Shown in pieces: positions 8,784 to 18,426 of a stretch of 64,000 nucleotides of DNA. Made by a program: the position numbers and the translations under genes. Source of the DNA: Xanthomonas sp. F10 (lineage in GTDB: Bacteria > Pseudomonadota > Gammaproteobacteria > Xanthomonadales > Xanthomonadaceae). Below the pieces are notes generated by a model. It ran no database searches and was not told the origin of the DNA. It saw only the letters and a list, made by a program, of their open reading frames with translations. Each line of letters starts with the position of its first letter. The stretch's first letter is position 1. The stretch spans positions 1,082,456 to 1,146,455 of the forward strand of contig NZ_JACHNP010000001.1 in NCBI RefSeq assembly GCF_014206815.1, given 5' to 3'.

Positions 8784-10349
8784 ATGACCAACATCCACAG
8801 CGACAAGATCCTCATCCTCGATTTCGGTGCGCAGTACACGCAGTTGATCGCGCGGCGCATTCGCGAACTGGGCGTGTATTGCGAGATCTGGGCGTGGGAC
8901 CACGATCCGGCCGAGATCGCCGGCTTCGGCGCCAAGGGCATCATCCTCTCCGGCGGCCCGGAATCGACCACGCTGCCGGGTGCGCCGGCTGCGCCGCAGG
9001 AAGTGTTCGACAGCGGCCTGCCGATCTTCGGCATCTGCTACGGCATGCAGACCCTGGCCGCGCAGCTTGGTGGCGCCACCGAGGCGGCGGATCAGCGCGA
9101 GTTCGGCCATGCCGAAGTCGAGGTGGTGGCCGCCGACGCGTTGTTCTCCGGGCTGACCGATCACGCAGGCGCCTCGCGCTTGAACGTGTGGATGAGCCAC
9201 GGCGACCACGTGTCGCAGGTGCCGCCGGGCTTCACCATCACCGCCGTCACCGACCGCATTCCGGTCGCGGCCATGGCCAACGAAGCCAAGCGCTGGTACG
9301 GCGTGCAGTTCCATCCGGAAGTCACCCACACCCTGCAGGGCCAGACCCTGCTGCGCCGTTTCGTGGTCGACGTGTGCGGCTGCGCCACGCTGTGGACCGC
9401 GGCCAATATCATCGACGACCAGATCGCCCGCGTGCGCGCCCAGGTCGGCGACGACGAGGTCATCCTCGGCCTGTCCGGCGGCGTGGATTCGTCGGTGGTC
9501 GCCGCACTGCTGCACAAGGCGATCGGCGACAAGCTGACCTGCGTGTTCGTCGACACCGGCCTGCTGCGCTGGCAGGAAGGCGACCAGGTGATGGCGATGT
9601 TCGCCGAGCACATGGGCGTCAAGGTCATCCGCGTCAACGCCGCCGACCGCTACTTCCAGGCGCTGGCCGGCGTCAGCGACCCGGAAGCCAAGCGCAAGAT
9701 CATCGGCAACCTGTTCGTGGAGATCTTCGACGAAGAGTCGAACAAGCTCCGCAACGCCAAGTGGCTGGCGCAGGGCACCATCTACCCCGACGTGATCGAG
9801 TCGGCCGGCAGCAAGACCGGCAAGGCCCACGTCATCAAGAGCCATCACAACGTCGGCGGCCTGCCCGAGCACATGAAGCTGGGCTTGGTCGAGCCGCTGC
9901 GCGAACTGTTCAAGGACGAAGTGCGGCGCCTGGGCGTCGAACTCGGCCTGCCGCGCAGCATGGTCTACCGCCATCCGTTCCCCGGCCCCGGGCTGGGCGT
10001 GCGCATCCTCGGCGAAGTGAAGCGCGAGTACGCCGAACTGCTGGCCAAGGCAGATGCCATCTTCATCGAGGAACTGCGCAAGGCCGACCTGTACGACAAG
10101 ACCAGCCAGGCCTTCGCCGTGTTCCTGCCGGTGAAGTCGGTCGGCGTGGTCGGCGACGCCCGCGCCTACGAGTGGGTGATCGCGCTGCGCGCGGTGGAGA
10201 CCATCGACTTCATGACCGCGCACTGGGCGCACCTGCCGTACGACTTCCTCGGCACGGTGAGCAACCGCATCATCAACGAACTGCGGGGGGTGTCGCGGGT
10301 GGTGTACGACATCTCGGGCAAGCCGCCGGCGACGATCGAGTGGGAGTGA
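8784..10349 (+). CDS. guaA: GMP synthase (glutamine-hydrolysing) GuaA
   Basis: GuaA aminates XMP to GMP. The 521-aa product has an N-terminal class I glutamine amidotransferase domain (nucleophile Cys85 in FGICYGMQ, His in QFHPEVTHT) and an ATP-pyrophosphatase domain with P-loop [12 protein letters not shown]-terminal dimerisation domain ends PPATIEWE. The start at 8784 gives [17 protein letters not shown]; upstream in-frame codons are repeat sequence. The last 25 bp (10325-10349) are repeated imperfectly at 15819-15843. The gene therefore served as the attachment site of a 5.5-kb island whose insertion left guaA intact. Confidence 0.97.
10325..10349 (+). other. attL: left attachment-site repeat at the guaA 3' end
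   Basis: The 25 bp ending at the guaA stop match 15819-15843 at 22 of 25 positions. The shared core is GATCGAGTGGGAGTGA, which includes the stop codon. The 3' end of guaA is a documented integration hotspot for genomic islands. Confidence 0.8.
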
Positions 10350-10354
10350 GTTGA

Positions 10355-10543
10355 CGTCCTTCGCGGACTATCGCCAGCTGTCGAAAAATTCACGAAGGCC
10401 TGGGCGAACGCGTGCAGATCAATTATGCCCAGGACGAAGTGCCCACTGCCATGATCGTGAGACCCGGGGCGCAAAAGCAGTTGCCGATCGGGTCCGCAGC
10501 CGGAACGCCGGTGGTGTTTGTAGATTCCCAAAGCCCGCCCTGA
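10355..10543 (+). pseudogene. Possible 3' remnant of an unidentified gene at the island's left end
   Basis: A 62-codon open stretch without a start codon begins directly after attL and reads ...GERVQINYAQDEVPTAMIV...GTPVVFVDSQSPP before TGA. It has the hydrophobic/polar patterning of real protein, unlike the other frames. It may be the tail of a gene truncated when the island formed. I do not recognise the family. The following ~230 bp to the regulator promoter show no coding signal. Confidence 0.35.
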
Positions 10544-10786
10544 CACTTGCGGCTCGCAGCTTCCCCGCACTCGCCGAAGCACTCCACTTCGCCTGCGGTG
10601 GGCCTAATTTCCAGCTTTGCGTTGCTATGTTCGGCAGCTTTGCTCGGTCCCGCACTCTCAGAGCGCTTCACTCGAAATTGACCAACGCCCGTATCCAGAG
10701 AAGATCCTTGGAAGCTTGCTTTCGGTGAGGCCGGGGGAGGCGTGGCAACAATCGACGTCTCGCGGGTAATGAAATGAACGTGAAGG

Positions 10787-10803
10787 TCGGGTGGGGCACC
10801 CGA
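10787..10803. promoter_or_regulatory. Operator 1 of the island regulator: 17-bp perfect palindrome
   Basis: TCGGGTG-GGG-CACCCGA has perfect 7-bp arms. Its start lies exactly 30 bp upstream of the start of the second palindrome, so both would face the same side of the helix. Confidence 0.7.
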
Positions 10804-10816
10804 TCTTGGGCGCAGA

Positions 10817-10833
10817 TCGGGTATAGTACCCGA
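10817..10833. promoter_or_regulatory. Operator 2 overlapping the -10 box of the island promoter
   Basis: TCGGGTA-TAG-TACCCGA has perfect 7-bp arms and contains TATAGT (10822-10827), a good -10 hexamer. No good -35 is visible at 17 bp, where the first palindrome lies. A ribosome-binding site AAGGAG sits at 10849-10854, six bases before the ATG at 10861. The arrangement suggests autoregulation by the adjacent MerR-like protein (inference). Confidence 0.7.
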
Positions 10834-10860
10834 CCTACAACCCTGCCGAAGGAGCCTGTG

Positions 10861-11382
10861 ATGCGCCTAGTGCCGACCCCAGTCGCCTCGCAGCTCACTG
10901 GTCTTTCAACAGAACAGCTGCGCGAGTGGACCAGTCGTCGTGCACTTGTGCCGGCCGATGTGCGGCCACGGCAGAAGGGCTCGCCTGCACAATTTAGTTG
11001 GCAGACTGTTCTTGTCTTGCGACTGGCTTTGCTGCTGCGTCACCAGTTCGGTGTCGAGCTTCAATTTCACAAAGAAAACTTCACAAGGCTGCGCAAGGTG
11101 TTGCACTCAACATCCTTTATCGCCCTATGGGGGCGGCGCCTAGCGCTGACGTGGCAAGGTGAGTTGTCGCTGCTTGACGATCAGACGTCTCTGCCGGTCG
11201 GAGATACCATTCTGATTCATCTTGACCCGCATCTAGCCATCATCAGGGACGGATTCGCGTTACCTGACGCAGCAGCGGCGACGGCGGCGGGACAGCTGGA
11301 TCTGTTCTCTCTCTCTCCAGTGCGAGCAGTAACGCGATCGTTGAAGGCGGCCAATGCTCGTAAGCAGAGGCGCTCGGCATGA
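10861..11382 (+). CDS. MerR-like winged-helix regulator, probable controller of the island restriction system
   Basis: A 173-aa protein. Residues ~7-75 look like a MerR-type winged helix: helix-turn-helix VASQLTGLSTEQLREWTSRR, then a wing with RPRQKGSPAQFSWQTV and a helix rich in Leu/Arg (LVLRLALLLRHQF). The rest resembles no effector domain I know, and the C-terminus is basic. I chose the ATG at 10861, preceded by AAGGAG, over an in-frame ATG at 10774 that lies upstream of the palindromes and promoter. By position it resembles a C-protein that times methyltransferase and nuclease expression after entry into a new host. That role is inferred from context only. Confidence 0.7.
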   Translation: MRLVPTPVASQLTGLSTEQLREWTSRRALVPADVRPRQKGSPAQFSWQTVLVLRLALLLRHQFGVELQFHKENFTRLRKVLHSTSFIALWGRRLALTWQGELSLLDDQTSLPVGDTILIHLDPHLAIIRDGFALPDAAAATAAGQLDLFSLSPVRAVTRSLKAANARKQRRSA

Positions 11383-11443
11383 GTTTCCAACATGTCGGCC
11401 GTCGGATACTTCTGCCCGGACTCGCATGGTTGGGGGTGTAACG

Positions 11444-14400
11444 ATGGTCTCTGTGCAGCAATGGCTCGACAGGCTCGGCTATTTGGCCGACCCCGCAGCG
11501 CTTCATGTGCGCGGAGCGAAAGTTCCGGCCGAGCACCCGTATGCTATGGAGATATCGGGTCTTTTGAAGCCAAATGGAGCAATCCGGGCGCAGGCTGTTT
11601 TCGATGTCGAAGGCGTGCCGACCGTGGTGTTTGTGGGCGAAGAAGGACCCTTGTCTCCGCAGAAGCTCGATGATGTGCGCAAGCGCATCTGGAATCAGAA
11701 CCTTGCAACGGTTGTGATTGAGCTGAAGGGCGCAGAGGCGATTGCCCTGCCAGCGCGAAAGCTTCAGGCCGAACAACGGCTGCGACTAGATGACGCGAGA
11801 CCTGATGGGCCGTTTTCCGCCTTGGATGTCGCAACGGCCAACTTGTCGCGCAGATTGCCGAAGTGGTTCGACGTCAAGGCGCGAGTCGATCGTAAACTGT
11901 TAGCCAATTTGTCGGTGACAGTGAGTAAGCTCGCTGGCGAGGGACTTCGTGGCAACGGATCCATCGCCACGCGCAGGCGGTTGGCTGAACTGCTCATGGG
12001 GCAAGTATTATTCATTTCGTACCTAGAGCATCGCGAGATCGTCGGGGCGACGTACCGCGAGCGTCGCCGCGTGACCGCGCTCCACGAATTGGTCGCAACA
12101 ATGGATCGCGAGGGTGTTCGTAATCTGGTGGATCGTTTGCGAAGGGACTTCAACGGCGACTTCATGGGAGATGATCGGCATGACCCCTGGATGGCACTAG
12201 CTGACCAGGGCTTTACGCTGCTGAATCAATTTCTTAGCCGTACTGACATGGAAAGCGGGCAGGGTGATTTCTGGAACTATGATTTCAGCTACATCCCAGT
12301 GGAGCTGCTTTCCGGTTTGTATGAGAAATTTCTTACGCCCGAGCAGCAGGCAAAAGAGGGGGCGTATTACACACCCCGCAATCTGGCAATGCTTGCAGTT
12401 GACCAGGCCTTATTGGCGTCTCCGGATCCCCTGGCAGAGATCATCTTCGACGGGGCGTGCGGTTCTGGCATCCTACTCACCACTGCTTACCGTCGCCTTA
12501 TCGCTCTGTCAGAAGCAAAGAGGGGGGGGCGACTTGGATTCGCCGAGCGCGGTGAATTATTGGTGCACAGCATTTTTGGTGCTGATGTCAATTTTATGGC
12601 ATGCCGTGTCACGGCTTTCAGTCTTTATCTGTCGCTGTTGGAAGGACTCGATCCAAAGGATATCCTTGAGGCTCAGGAACGTGATGGTACCAAGCTGCCT
12701 TCCTTGAGCGATACCAACTTGGCTCATGGCAAAGTGCGAGGGGATTTCTTTCGTAACTCTCACGCGTTTCATAGTCGCCGCTTCACATTGATCATCTCTA
12801 ACCCGCCATGGGCCGAGCCTGAAGGGGACGCGCGCACTTCAGCCGACGACTGGGCGAAGCGGGCGAGCGTGCCTTTCGCTCGGCGGCAGATAGCGGGCGC
12901 ATACGTTTTGCGGGCCCGCGAGTTCCTGTCGGAGGGCGGTCGCGTGTGCCTCATTCTGCCGATCGGCCAGTTCCTTGGCGCTTCAGCTTCAAATGCTAAT
13001 TTCGTGGCCCACACCTTACGCAACTACCGCCCGTTGCGACTGATCAACTTCGGTGATCTTCAAGGTCTGCTGTTTCCTACGGCAGAGAACACCTGCCATG
13101 TCTTCATTGGAGAGCGTCGCGGTGGCGAGCTCGGCAATCACGTTCCATTCGACGAAACTTTCGACTACCTGGTTCCCAAAGCCGATTTGAGTCTCGCCCT
13201 GGGCAGGTTGACGATGCAGTCTGCCGATCGCCACACACTGCAGACTCGTGCAGTGGCGGAGGACCCGCAGCTGCTGGTTGCGATGATGTGGGGTGACGCA
13301 AATGATTTGGCTATCTGGACTAGGCTGACTCTGCGAGGGACTTTTGCCGATTTCTGGCGCGGCCCCAAAGAGTTCCGCCGCTGGGTGTACCGTAAAGGCA
13401 TTCACTTACAGGACAAGAGCCGTGAGGCTGTTGACGCTGGTGTGCTTCGTGGAAGGAAGCATGTACCGATCGCTGCCTTGCGGTTGGGCTCGCCGGTCCT
13501 GCACCCCGAGTTGCTTGCCGAGTGGCCTGTGCAACACAAAACCGTCGTAGGCTTGGGGCCGGAAATCCTAAAGGTCTTCGACGGGCCGCGCGTGTTATTC
13601 CCGGATGGCTTTTCCAAGGATGAACAGAACGTTCGGGCTGTGTACTTTGAAGGTCCCGCTTCGTTCACTCATAGCATTGGTGTAATTGCGGGGCCTAAGG
13701 AAGACGCAGCGTTATTGCAGTTCGTCGCGGTCTACCTACGCTCGACGCTAGCACGCTATTTCCTAATGTTGCGCGGTTGGAAGATGCTTTGCGAGCGCAA
13801 CGGTGTGCATTTGAGCGACGTAGAAACCTTCCCCTTTTTCGCTCCCGATGCCGCTCCTGATCCTAAGGCGGCTTACGCTGCATTGCGCACGGTTCGAATT
13901 CGGATGAACGAGCTTGCCTCGCTCTCGGATCTGGAGCAGGTGCCTCGATATGAAGCGTTGCGTGGTGAACTCGACCACGCGATATTTACGTATTTTGGAC
14001 TCACGGCTGAAGAACAATTGCTGGTTCGAGAAACCGTGGACGTCTTAATGCCCTCAGTGCGGCCGCGTAGTTTCAAGAGTTTGGATACCCCGGCACAGCA
14101 TCGTGTTAAGGCTGACGATTTTAATATCTATGCCAATGCACTCGCGGAAGCATTAACGGCTTGGCGTACAAAAACACGCGGCCAAGGGAAGTTTGGGATT
14201 GATGTCATTGCTAGCGATCCCCGGCGCGCTGGGCCTTCAGGCATTGTGCGCGTTTCCTATATGCAGAGACCCACCGATGAGCCGGAGGTCAGCGCCAAGA
14301 TTAACGATGAACTGGTGCTCGCAACGTTAGCCGAACTTCAGCGTCTCGGGCTGCGCTTGATCCAGTCTGGCGATTTCCTGCACCTTATACCAGATGTGCA

Positions 14401-14545
14401 TCTGTGGATCGACGAGTCCCTATACCTTGTGCGCCCTCTTGCCCGGCGGAATTGGACCCGTAGACAGGCTCACCGGGATGCTGAACACATTGTGCGCAAT
14501 GTGCAAGCGCAATCCTCTGGAAAGAAGAGAGTGGAGATGACATGA
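11444..14545 (+). CDS. N6-adenine DNA methyltransferase, type II/IIG-like, 1033 aa
   Basis: A gamma-type adenine methyltransferase by motif order: YYTP at 308-311, SAM-binding FDGACGSG at ~335-342 and catalytic NPPW at 453-456. An N-terminal ~150-residue domain precedes it (with WNQNLATVVIELKG around 84-96), followed by an alpha-helical stretch. The ~500-residue C-terminal part presumably holds target recognition; WKMLCERNG...HLSDVETFPFF is typical of such regions. The ATG at 11444 (MVSVQQWLDRLG) follows GGGGGTG; in-frame upstream ATGs overlap the regulator gene. The stop overlaps the next start in ATGA, implying translational coupling to the nuclease-like gene. Alternatives are a solitary BREX/DISARM-type methylase, but none of the partner genes of those systems is present. 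Confidence 0.85.
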   Translation: MVSVQQWLDRLGYLADPAALHVRGAKVPAEHPYAMEISGLLKPNGAIRAQAVFDVEGVPTVVFVGEEGPLSPQKLDDVRKRIWNQNLATVVIELKGAEAIALPARKLQAEQRLRLDDARPDGPFSALDVATANLSRRLPKWFDVKARVDRKLLANLSVTVSKLAGEGLRGNGSIATRRRLAELLMGQVLFISYLEHREIVGATYRERRRVTALHELVATMDREGVRNLVDRLRRDFNGDFMGDDRHDPWMALADQGFTLLNQFLSRTDMESGQGDFWNYDFSYIPVELLSGLYEKFLTPEQQAKEGAYYTPRNLAMLAVDQALLASPDPLAEIIFDGACGSGILLTTAYRRLIALSEAKRGGRLGFAERGELLVHSIFGADVNFMACRVTAFSLYLSLLEGLDPKDILEAQERDGTKLPSLSDTNLAHGKVRGDFFRNSHAFHSRRFTLIISNPPWAEPEGDARTSADDWAKRASVPFARRQIAGAYVLRAREFLSEGGRVCLILPIGQFLGASASNANFVAHTLRNYRPLRLINFGDLQGLLFPTAENTCHVFIGERRGGELGNHVPFDETFDYLVPKADLSLALGRLTMQSADRHTLQTRAVAEDPQLLVAMMWGDANDLAIWTRLTLRGTFADFWRGPKEFRRWVYRKGIHLQDKSREAVDAGVLRGRKHVPIAALRLGSPVLHPELLAEWPVQHKTVVGLGPEILKVFDGPRVLFPDGFSKDEQNVRAVYFEGPASFTHSIGVIAGPKEDAALLQFVAVYLRSTLARYFLMLRGWKMLCERNGVHLSDVETFPFFAPDAAPDPKAAYAALRTVRIRMNELASLSDLEQVPRYEALRGELDHAIFTYFGLTAEEQLLVRETVDVLMPSVRPRSFKSLDTPAQHRVKADDFNIYANALAEALTAWRTKTRGQGKFGIDVIASDPRRAGPSGIVRVSYMQRPTDEPEVSAKINDELVLATLAELQRLGLRLIQSGDFLHLIPDVHLWIDESLYLVRPLARRNWTRRQAHRDAEHIVRNVQAQSSGKKRVEMT

Positions 14546-15294
14546 CGTCAGTGACCGCCCCATTAGAGTCTCCCCCTGCGGCTTGGCTTGCGGCTTTTCC
14601 TATCCAGCCGGCCACCGAAGCCGTGGAGGCCTTGCGACAGGGGTGGATGGAACTGGCACAAAGGCCGCGGCCAGAATTCAATCCAAAGACCAAAGAAGAT
14701 GCGCTCACAAAACGCTTGAAGGTCTATGTGGAGAATCATGTTGCTCGACAGCGTGGACTGCTTGGCATGTGGGCCGCGGAAGATATCATCGGTGATTTTG
14801 ATCCAGTAACGGGCGCGATGATCGAGGAACGCAGAACAGATATCGTGTATGGATGGAACGACGCTTTACAAGGCATTAAGCTTGTGTTTGAGTTCAAGCG
14901 CTTGGGTCGCCAGAAAAAGCATCGCGACCATTATCTAAAAAAAGAAGGCCTCGGCCGGTTTGTAACAGGTATATATAGTCGCCGCCAAGCAGTGGCGGCC
15001 ATGGTAGGAGTTCTACTCGATCCGGAAATTGAGGTGGTGCCCCCAATCCGGACTGCCCTGGAGGATGAGGGCTTGGCGAAGACATTGCGTTTGCGCAAAA
15101 CAGCAGCTGGTCTTACCTATTCGCGGCCGTCCACGCTTTTTGCTTACGCCGATTTTGATACCGAGCATGAGCGTGAAGCAGCGCTTGCGCCAACGCACGG
15201 AACAATCCGAGTCTCGCACTTTTTCTTTAGCTTTGGTTACCCGACTACCACGTTGAAGCGGAAGACCGCTTCCTCCATCGGCGTGCCCAATTAA
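14542..15294 (+). CDS. PD-(D/E)XK nuclease-like protein, candidate restriction subunit
   Basis: A 250-aa protein starting inside the methyltransferase stop (ATGA). A conserved-looking core reads RTDIVYGW...KLVFEFKRLG, giving D100...E117-x-K119, the D-x(n)-ExK signature of PD-(D/E)XK nucleases. Upstream helices (KEDALTKRLKVYVENH) contain acidic residues that could complete the site, and LGRFVTGIYSRRQAVAAMVG could be the following helix. I recognise no named family. Coupling to an adenine methyltransferase and a regulator suggests the cleaving subunit of a type II-like system. A role in antiviral targeting of unmodified DNA is inferred. Confidence 0.6.
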   Translation: MTSVTAPLESPPAAWLAAFPIQPATEAVEALRQGWMELAQRPRPEFNPKTKEDALTKRLKVYVENHVARQRGLLGMWAAEDIIGDFDPVTGAMIEERRTDIVYGWNDALQGIKLVFEFKRLGRQKKHRDHYLKKEGLGRFVTGIYSRRQAVAAMVGVLLDPEIEVVPPIRTALEDEGLAKTLRLRKTAAGLTYSRPSTLFAYADFDTEHEREAALAPTHGTIRVSHFFFSFGYPTTTLKRKTASSIGVPN

Positions 15295-15818
15295 TGTGCT
15301 CACATGGGGAAAGACTCCCTGAGATACGTGAGCCAGGGTGGTTTCGGGGTGGTTCGGAGTGCGTGCAATGAGGGTTCTGGAGAAGAACTGCAGGGTCGTT
15401 CAGGTGTGCGCTCTCTGGAAAGCGGTGAGACTCGGGTCATTCCATTTGATAACCACCAGCGAAATCACTGGAACGATCCATGGAGGACAATGCCATCACG
15501 TTGCCTCAGGGGGCTGGCGCATCCGAGGTTGGGAGGGCCGTCGAGGCCGCCTTCATTGGCGACCTATCATCCTGAAAAAAAGAATCCCCGTTTCCTGACT
15601 TCAGAGTACTTCACCCGTGACGACGTGGACGCCGTCGTAGGCGGTCGGCAGGGTCTACGCTATCCTAGATGCCGATTGACTATGGGTTGCCAGTACCATC
15701 GGGTCCTGAAATGCCTCTGTCTTCCGTACCAGACAAAGCTCTTCTCGGGCGACGGTAAGCGCGACGGTAATGGCCATGTCGATCAACACCAAATCCTTAA
15801 CCACGAGGACTTGCGAGT
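15295..15818. other. Island right end, no supported gene
   Basis: About 520 bp between the nuclease-like gene and attR. A 179-codon frame (15304-15843) crosses it and runs into the guaA-derived repeat, ending MIEWE, but its composition is low-complexity and resembles no protein. Short minus-strand frames are equally unconvincing. It may be remnants of a lost integration module. Confidence 0.5.
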
Positions 15819-15843
15819 GCCGTTGATGATCGAGTGGGAGTGA
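15819..15843 (+). other. attR: right attachment-site repeat
   Basis: GCCGTTGATGATCGAGTGGG plus AGTGA repeats the last 25 bp of guaA with three mismatches, including the stop codon in the same frame. It marks the right island boundary. Confidence 0.8.
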
Positions 15844-15878
15844 CGTCCGGTTCTTTCGAGGCGATCGTCCTCTATCGG

Positions 15879-15914
15879 AAATGCCGCACCGATGATTTGA
15901 TCGGTGCGGCATTT
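15879..15914. terminator. Perfect 15-bp hairpin, probable original guaA terminator
   Basis: Arms AAATGCCGCACCGAT and ATCGGTGCGGCATTT flank a GATTTG loop. It lies 36 bp after attR, between plus-strand genes and the minus-strand dabA gene. It would have terminated guaA before the island arrived and can work in both directions. Confidence 0.75.
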
Positions 15915-15990
15915 CTCTGGGCCAGCAAAGAAGCCAGACTAGCCCTCGCGCGTTTGCCGTTTTAGTGCCGAGTAGGTGGTGAAGGCTGCT

Positions 15991-18426
15991 TCAAGTGAGC
16001 CCCGCCGCGGCGGCGCGCTTTGAGACGGCAGCGTTGAAGCGCGCTTCCCAGCTTAGATCGCCGGTGTAGCGCCACGCCATCCGCCCTTCATCATCCAGCG
16101 CGAAAAGATGCAGCCACCGGTTGTCGAACAGCGCGCGCACCTGCGGATGGCGTTCGAGAATGTTGCTGATCGCCTCGGTCGGTGCCTCGATCAGTACGGA
16201 GAGCCGCAGCGGTTCGTGGATCAGCCGTTCGCCGTCGTGCACCGACTGCCACGGCAACCCACCGCGCAGCAGGCCGCCATTGCCTTCGACCACGCCGATG
16301 CCGCCGGTGACGTTGTGCAGCAGCTTGTTGCCTGCGCCGAAGACCTCGGGCGCGACGGTCGAGCCGTAGTACTGCAGGCTGATCCAGCTGGCGACCAGGA
16401 CCGGGGCGGTCAGGATCAGCTCCAGCACGCCGAAGCCCTCGTCGCGCCGCCAGTCGTAGTCGTGGAGGAAGGTGCGTCCCGCCAGGTCGCGTCCCGCCGT
16501 GCGCGAGCGCGGCGCGGCGATGAAGGCCTGGCAACCGGCCAGTGCCCACTCGGGGCGCAGTTCGGCCCAGTCGCGGGCGCGATGCGCGATGTCCTGGCTG
16601 TGCTGCGCGCGCGGCAGGCGCAGTGCGCGCTCGCCGCGCGTCAGCGCGCCGGCGTTGTGCAGCCAACGCGCCGCCTGCTCGAGATCGGTGGCATGCGCGG
16701 GCGCGGGATGGTCAGCGCTGTAGAGCGTGACCGCATCGGTCGTGGTGTCGTGCAATGCACCCACGAACAGCGTGTCGGCGGGAATGGCGATGCCGCGCTC
16801 GGCGAGACCGACGCGCACCTCGGGGTCGTTGAGCAGTCTAGCGAGCAGCCGCGCGTTCACTTCGCCCGAGTAGCCGCCGCAGGCGCCGCAATGCAGGGCG
16901 CTGGCATGCGGGTTGTTCACCACGTTTGCCCCATGGCTGGCGATCACCACGAGACGGGCGAAGCCGCTGGTGAGCGACATCGCCTTGAGGATGCGCGTGG
17001 CCATGGTCAGCCGCGTGTCGAGGTCGAGCGCGTCCGCCGGGCGCGGCGCGGGATCGTTCGGCGCTGGGTGCCGCGTCAGTCCCAATCCATCGCGCAGCAG
17101 CTTGGCGACGTAGATCGGACCGGTGGCCTCGACGAAGGCGAACGAGGAAATGGCGGCCAGCTTGAAGCGCCCCCAGGCGCGCTTCGCACGCGCCGCGATC
17201 CGCGCGGCGAGGTCCGCCTCGGCCACCGAGGACGTGGCCTCTCCCGCGCAGGTGTGCACCCCCGGCGTCAGCAGCACTGGAAGGCGCGCTTCGACTACGT
17301 CCGAGGCGAACCGCCGATGGCCGATACCCAGCCCGAAGAAGCCGGCGAACCCGATCGTCTGGATGCCCGCATCGAGGCTTTCCAGTGCGCGGCGGAACAC
17401 TTCCGATCGCACGTCGATGCAGAAGGCCATCTGCAATGTCATCCGGGCAGGGGCGACCGGGGCCGGGGCGGGCGCTGCAAGCACGCTGCCGAGCCGCCGC
17501 TGCGCAGCCCGTTCGGCCGCTTCCTGCAGGATGCTGTCGACGACGTCGTCCGAAGTCGCCGCCACCGGCATGGCGTAAGCGGCGATGGCGGTTCGCCACG
17601 CGGGCGCGATCGCCGCACCGAACTTGCCCAGCAGGGCGGCTTCCCAACTGATGCGGATGGCGAGCAGATCGGTGACGCAGGCATCGGTTCCGCCGCTCAG
17701 CTCCGCTTGCCAGAGCCGATGGCGGGCGACCTGGCTCCAGCCGCCCAGCGTGGTCAGCAGTCGGTGGAAATAGCCGTCCAGCGCCTCGGGCGAGAGGCCG
17801 AGGCGGGCGACTCCCTCGACGATCGCCTCTTCGGCAGTCGCTGGCGCGTCCGCCACCTGTTGTGCGAATCGGGTGAGCCCGGCGATTTCCGGCGTCAGAT
17901 CGTGGGTCGCGACGAGGCGCCATGCGCTGTAGGCGCCGCCTGACTGCCCGGCGACCCACAGCGCCTGGCCCTGATCGAAATAGGCGGCGGCCCAGTGCCC
18001 GATGCGCTCTTCGACGATGCCCGGCCAGTCGATCGCCGAAACGTCGCGGGCCAAGTCGGCGACGGTCGGAATTGCCTGCGGGGCAGGGTGCATGGCATCG
18101 ACGGCGAGTTTGAGCGCGGACACCGTCGGCGGGCGCAGCGCCGTCGGCGCGTTGTGCCAGGCCGCCTGCAGATCCTCCTCGGCGATGTCGCCGGACTGCA
18201 GCCGCTGCGCATACCAGGGGCGCGGCATGGCCACGGCGATGCCGGCGGCGCGCCGTAGCCGTGCCGCCGCGATCGGCAGCGGTTCGCCGGCCTGGCCGAG
18301 GAAGGGATTGACCGCCACGCTCGAGGCCAGCGGCCACAGCGGGGGAATGGCGCGTGCCGCACGCGCGGCGGCGGCGATGATCGCAGCGTGGGATAGGGGC
18401 GACGCGTCGGTCGTGGTCATCGGCAT
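15991..18426 (-). CDS. dabA: DAB inorganic-carbon transporter subunit DabA (DUF2309)
   Basis: DabA is the beta-carbonic-anhydrase-like subunit that, with DabB, drives energy-coupled CO2 hydration and bicarbonate accumulation at the membrane. The 811-aa product carries the zinc-site residues in order: C336 and D338 in FCIDVRSE, H498 in IASHGANVV and C513 in [12 protein letters not shown]. The spacing matches the family (2, 160 and 15 residues). ATG 18426 is preceded by AGGA. An internal ATG at 18420 forms an ATGA overlap with the dabB stop, so the two genes are coupled. Open frame further upstream is read-through in the dabB region and was discarded. Confidence 0.93.

Follow-up and report, generated by a model that had tools for sequence, protein, structure and literature searches.

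A guaA-side island of Xanthomonas sp. F10 carries a putative restriction-modification-like operon with a MerR-like regulator and a conserved palindromic operator

What does the short insertion behind the guaA gene of Xanthomonas sp. F10 encode, and could it be a defence system? The stretch of 64,000 nucleotides that was analysed (positions 1,082,456 to 1,146,455 of contig NZ_JACHNP010000001.1), which we call the window, contains a 5.5-kb island with a MerR-like regulator gene, an N6-adenine methylase gene and a third gene for a small nuclease-like protein. An earlier sequence-only reading had proposed that the three genes form an undescribed restriction-modification (R-M) system with controller, methylase and nuclease in one operon. 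Our comparative analysis on balance favours a mobile R-M-like defence unit with an unusual controller, and it adds a new element, a conserved palindromic operator that goes with the regulator. The features of the island are listed below (aa, amino acids).

10334..10349: left copy of a direct repeat of 16 bp, GATCGAGTGGGAGTGA, formed by the 3' terminus of guaA
10789..10801: operator, distal copy with core GGGTGGGGCACCC, two mismatches to GGGTANNNTACCC
10819..10831: operator, proximal copy with core GGGTATAGTACCC, an exact match
10861..11382, plus strand: MerR-like regulator, 173 aa when read from the start codon that relatives back
11444..14545, plus strand: N6-adenine DNA methylase, 1033 aa, with N6_Mtase and Eco57I domains
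14542..15294, plus strand: PD-(D/E)XK nuclease-like protein, 250 aa
15828..15843: right copy of the repeat GATCGAGTGGGAGTGA, 16 bp, where the island ends

The coupling of the genes and their joint recurrence, which the sequence-only reading had named as a check, both hold. The methylase and nuclease genes overlap by ATGA, and 28 of the 29 loci with a methylase upstream have a start codon that allows such a 4-bp overlap. The 31 loci retrieved with the nuclease query belong, by their record titles, to Alpha-, Beta- and Gammaproteobacteria, and the methylase lies directly upstream in 29 of them, 27 times in full length and twice cut by contig ends (L009, L019). The two remaining loci are L031 with a methylase remnant of 22 residues and L032 without methylase. 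In one environmental relative, Variovorax sp. OK212 (L002), the methylase is 87% identical. The regulator is found in 25 of the 31 loci; it is cut off in L009 and L019, L031 and L032 are degraded, and L012 and L028 lack it. Most of the neighbouring open reading frames (ORFs) are without homologues at other loci, but they are shared among L005-L010 and partly within L016/L017/L027 and L025/L026, so that the 31 loci are not independent. The distribution is sparse: the nuclease profile found no match in 18 genus mates, its sole further match among 60 relatives was in a genome from another family of the order (G047; the same-species genome G453 was in neither set), and it matched two of the 398 genomes of a phylum sample, the window's own included, while missing diverged copies in G075 and G251.

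Palindromes stand upstream of the regulator in nearly all loci inspected. Of 36 loci, near-identical ones included, 35 have the operator GGGTANNNTACCC with at most one mismatch in a region that covers 110 bp before the regulator gene and 10 bp of the gene itself; the match is exact in 24, and 24 of the 36 have two copies, usually spaced 30 bp apart. The remainder of the same loci (676,692 bp) contains no exact copy and two copies with one mismatch. The one locus outside this count, L029, carries two copies that each deviate at two positions; two loci were added later, L110 with an exact copy and L108 with one mismatch. Nine stretches in front of methylases were checked: regulator and core are both absent from seven and both present in L037, and L072 shows a weak regulator match without core. 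The host genome harbors two exact sites, one of them at this operon. In the window alone chance could account for a single match at this level (at most one mismatch), and the case for the operator thus rests on its position and on the comparison across loci. A scan for sigma-70 promoters found none before the regulator; by eye, a TATGAT within many operator copies resembles a -10 box.

The match of the regulator to Pfam MerR_1 looks real, though at 19.8 bits it is under the curated cut-off of 21.6, and its Pfam matches are all of MerR type (E 8e-4 and 0.077) instead of the Xre-type helix-turn-helix. The start at 10774 is to be revised: the gene probably begins at ATG 10861, because the match starts at residue 26-30 in 15 of 25 loci and because both operator copies would otherwise fall inside the longer reading frame.

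The nuclease assignment draws on an invariant motif. Residues D100 and E117-x-K119, the proposed PD-(D/E)XK signature, and in addition E52 are retained in all 42 family sequences, some of which are about 20% identical (L031 and L032, both degraded, are omitted from this set). The suggested homology and structure searches gave a divided outcome: the best structural matches of the 250-aa protein are restriction enzymes, and its structure model, which is poor, gives a weak hint of nucleases of the BamHI/EcoRV type, but sequence searches against solved structures retrieved no nuclease. A match to AbiEi (E 5e-4, residues 120-194) was taken as chance because other libraries gave no match.

The invariance of this motif bears on whether the genes serve defence at all. 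They could instead form an epigenetic regulator or another non-defence methylation unit of mobile elements, in line with the occurrence of the nuclease on 17 and the regulator on 6 plasmid records, with their presence on islands and with related methylases that have no nuclease (L072, L073); an idle nuclease partner is unlikely given a motif kept in 42 of 42 sequences, and we regard this explanation as quite improbable. Relatives of the nuclease were matched in none of 50,697 phage records, and scans of viral contigs with three diverged nucleases found none either. Close-family scans recovered two IMG/VR contigs called viral (L085/L087, L086) with the nuclease, one of them also with the regulator. 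Plasmid annotations name the nuclease as hypothetical or "Fis family", and on the Paracoccus plasmid L035 a sul2 resistance gene is annotated (9436-10248) about 0.7 kb past it.

The catalytic motifs predicted for the methylase, FDGACGSG, NPPW and the YTP of YYTP, proved invariant in 24 aligned methylases. The protein itself is already catalogued, since the PADLOC model PDLC03623 (REase_MTase_IIG, putative type IIG enzymes), a broad model that also gives weak hits in two of 14 control genomes, matches it over residues 4-1026 with 833 bits. This full-length match would suit a true single-chain type IIG enzyme with the small protein as an accessory, as would the N-terminus, which is predicted as an alpha/beta domain in a poor structure model; there, 3 of 50 structural rows span it and align to DrdV or BsaXI at a root-mean-square deviation of 14-17 A. 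A separate nuclease gene, a regulator gene and the lack of a conserved PD-(D/E)XK motif in the methylase set the operon apart from type IIG. No [DE]xK pair is kept in at least 13 of 15 diverged methylases, in a test confined to [DE]xK and HxK nuclease types, and the sole pairs reaching at least 90% in the close family, D143/K145 and D149/K151, sit immediately before and at the beginning of a predicted helix. Cutting would hence come from the separate gene, and a single-chain enzyme appears improbable. The methylation target was sought and none was found. The annotation of plasmid pRSB223 splits the methylase into two genes, and it looks short on Pseudosulfitobacter plasmids (L038:5963-9657 and L037:6598-8663).

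The third gene is less uniform when the search starts from the regulator. Samples of 398 genomes of the phylum and 385 of a class, partly overlapping, gave nine distinct regulator matches, seven of them with a large methylase downstream; the other two are a second match in G744 (a fragment of 58 positions) and a weak one in G464 (E 2.6e-5). An N-6 DNA methylase also follows the regulator in all six plasmid records. Across the 13 regulator-first loci with methylase, which include that of the window, the third gene encodes a PD-(D/E)XK protein in eight, a PIN domain in two and an unrelated family without assignment in three. Both PIN loci (L083, L084; Pfam E 1e-10 and 1.5e-12) belong to one lineage with 79% identical methylases. 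Their VapC-like gene (L083:6044-6541, L084:6098-6595) replaces the nuclease and starts 3 bp past the methylase, with a regulator and operator of the same kind upstream and no antitoxin gene between methylase and PIN gene. The third family, about 250 aa long and 31-35% mutually identical (L090:8860-9642, L091:8890-9627, L110:6207-7028), follows the regulator and a methylase of 815-827 aa; its members in L090 and L091 have no Pfam or PADLOC match. The front of the operon varies as well. In L071 an HTH_11 gene precedes the methylase-nuclease pair, and in L076 (7287-13433) the methylase, a PD-(D/E)XK gene and a TIR-domain gene overlap as an operon with a divergent WYL gene; the association of WYL regulators with defence systems is known (BrxR; available text of PMC12707154). 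Among six methylase-first loci, L071, L075 and L077 have a next gene that the nuclease profile recognises; L074 offers a doubtful candidate (hhalign probability 2%, yet its E, D, E and K align), and L072 and L073 have no recognisable nuclease among ORFs of at least 100 aa. It looks as if the regulator and the third gene can be swapped, and the effectors of the unit are perhaps exchangeable.

This variation speaks for a different kind of action, namely a methylase-gated effector system in place of restriction. The methylase would mark or sense DNA; the effector linked to it, of an exchangeable kind (PD-(D/E)XK, PIN or other), would be freed on invasion and attack DNA or RNA, possibly that of its own cell in abortive infection or addiction. 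The TIR gene overlapping the nuclease gene in L076 fits this idea, and PIN domains are reported as needed for phage defence in the available text of PMC13092281. It has to be set against this that the two PIN loci represent one lineage, that the third gene in the window's family is always PD-(D/E)XK, though the nuclease was the search query, and that the best structural matches are restriction enzymes. We consider the gated effector a tentative alternative, less likely than R-M.

The R-M logic of the sequence-only reading thus keeps its support from the recurrence, the invariant nuclease signature and the conserved operator, but not for every regulator-first locus, given the PIN genes in 2 of 13 and the unassigned family in 3 of 13. 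According to the R-M-like reading, the methylase would mark a fixed target as self via N6-methyladenine, and the separate PD-(D/E)XK nuclease would cut unmarked DNA such as that of phages, alone or in a complex in which the methylase supplies target recognition. The MerR-like protein would bind the GGGTANNNTACCC operators that lie in tandem in front of its gene, and would set the level of the operon, presumably by repression, in the role that C proteins have in classical type II systems.

C proteins are Xre-type regulators. The operon shares with the type II R-M systems that they control the separate genes for a methylase and a linked nuclease, each with catalytic motifs, a small regulator, and conserved palindromic operators before the regulator gene; it differs in its MerR-like regulator and in the size of its methylase. 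Its anatomy fits separate-gene methylase-nuclease systems, and its action is best read as most like R-M with a controller. A related arrangement is that of RptR, reported as an all-helical regulator that binds TAGCTA and stands mostly before type I systems (PMC12255303). It likewise heads R-M operons as a small regulator with conserved short palindromes upstream of its own gene; RptR differs from the MerR-like regulator, and the available text of that paper names no MerR protein. Among the matches listed in the open-licence PubMed Central (PMC) literature, none describes the trio or an R-M controller of MerR-like type; the methylase by itself is already catalogued.

Large N6-adenine methylases are also found in BREX (PglX) and MADS (MAD2), and the operon could be a fragment or relative of one of them, given that its methylase is distantly similar to both models and that model mad1 weakly matches the regulator (E 0.039). 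The scores are far under the curated cut-offs, with 27 bits against 720 for the MAD2 equivalog and at best 21.3 against 400 for PglX (BREX-2), and the partner genes of both systems are absent from the 5.5-kb island, as the sequence-only reading had stated for BREX. Membership in either system was rejected, and even a distant derivation is very improbable.

The mobility of the unit is suggested by its location. From the end of guaA at 10349, lower-GC DNA extends over 5.5 kb, followed by other genes on the minus strand; the GC content is 54-58% across 11-16 kb and about 66-73% in both flanks. The second of the two 16-bp repeats GATCGAGTGGGAGTGA that bound the island repeats the last 16 bp of guaA. 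These findings and the comparison of guaA sides identify the stretch as acquired DNA, as had been proposed from its composition. The distance from guaA to the right flank is 5.7 kb in the window (site 10349-16046) and about 0.4 (G004, nearly empty), 2.6, 3.0, 3.9, 6.3, 13.9, 79 and 105 kb in eight other genus genomes (20 per search, the window's own included; in 11 others the flank was unmatched over its gene). This range of insert sizes, from about 0.4 to 105 kb, marks the guaA side as an integration hot spot within the genus, and guaA is already known as an integration site (available text of PMC9376610). The first 40 bp 3' of guaA match post-guaA DNA in four genus mates (G001, G003, G006, G010), and the last 190 bp of the island are 73-80% similar to near-guaA DNA of G003, G006 and G009. 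In the same-species genome G453 the joined flanks were matched on the guaA side only. The segment 10389-10546, about 76% identical to DNA of two genus mates (L102, L103), is probably what is left of a former cargo gene.

No integrase gene is present on the island, which would therefore probably travel as a passenger, mobilised by guaA-specific integrases that other elements encode. In G003, G006 and G009 an integrase adjoins guaA that is 45-61% identical to one from an alphaproteobacterium (L077), where the trio itself adjoins guaA together with this integrase; in a third trio locus near guaA (L024) the gene is 5 kb off. Nine large neighbours scanned from six loci comprise Hma proteins (L004), MmeI (L011), an nSTAND protein (L013), conjugation proteins (L015), a DEAD-box protein (L020) and a DNA polymerase (L025).

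Beyond the R-M-like unit itself, a broader interpretation is possible, if doubtful: a modular immune platform of MerR-like regulator, operator and methylase sensor, in which the built-in nuclease of the methylase was lost and varied plug-in effectors took its place (PD-(D/E)XK nuclease, PIN-domain nuclease, the unassigned family and perhaps TIR). If this were true, both restriction and cell suicide would be outputs of a methylation-based reading of self. The operon as such would add R-M controllers of a MerR-like class with a predictable operator, imply that catalogued single-chain type IIG proteins can need a separate nuclease overlooked by annotation, and offer a testable case of methylation tied to interchangeable effectors.
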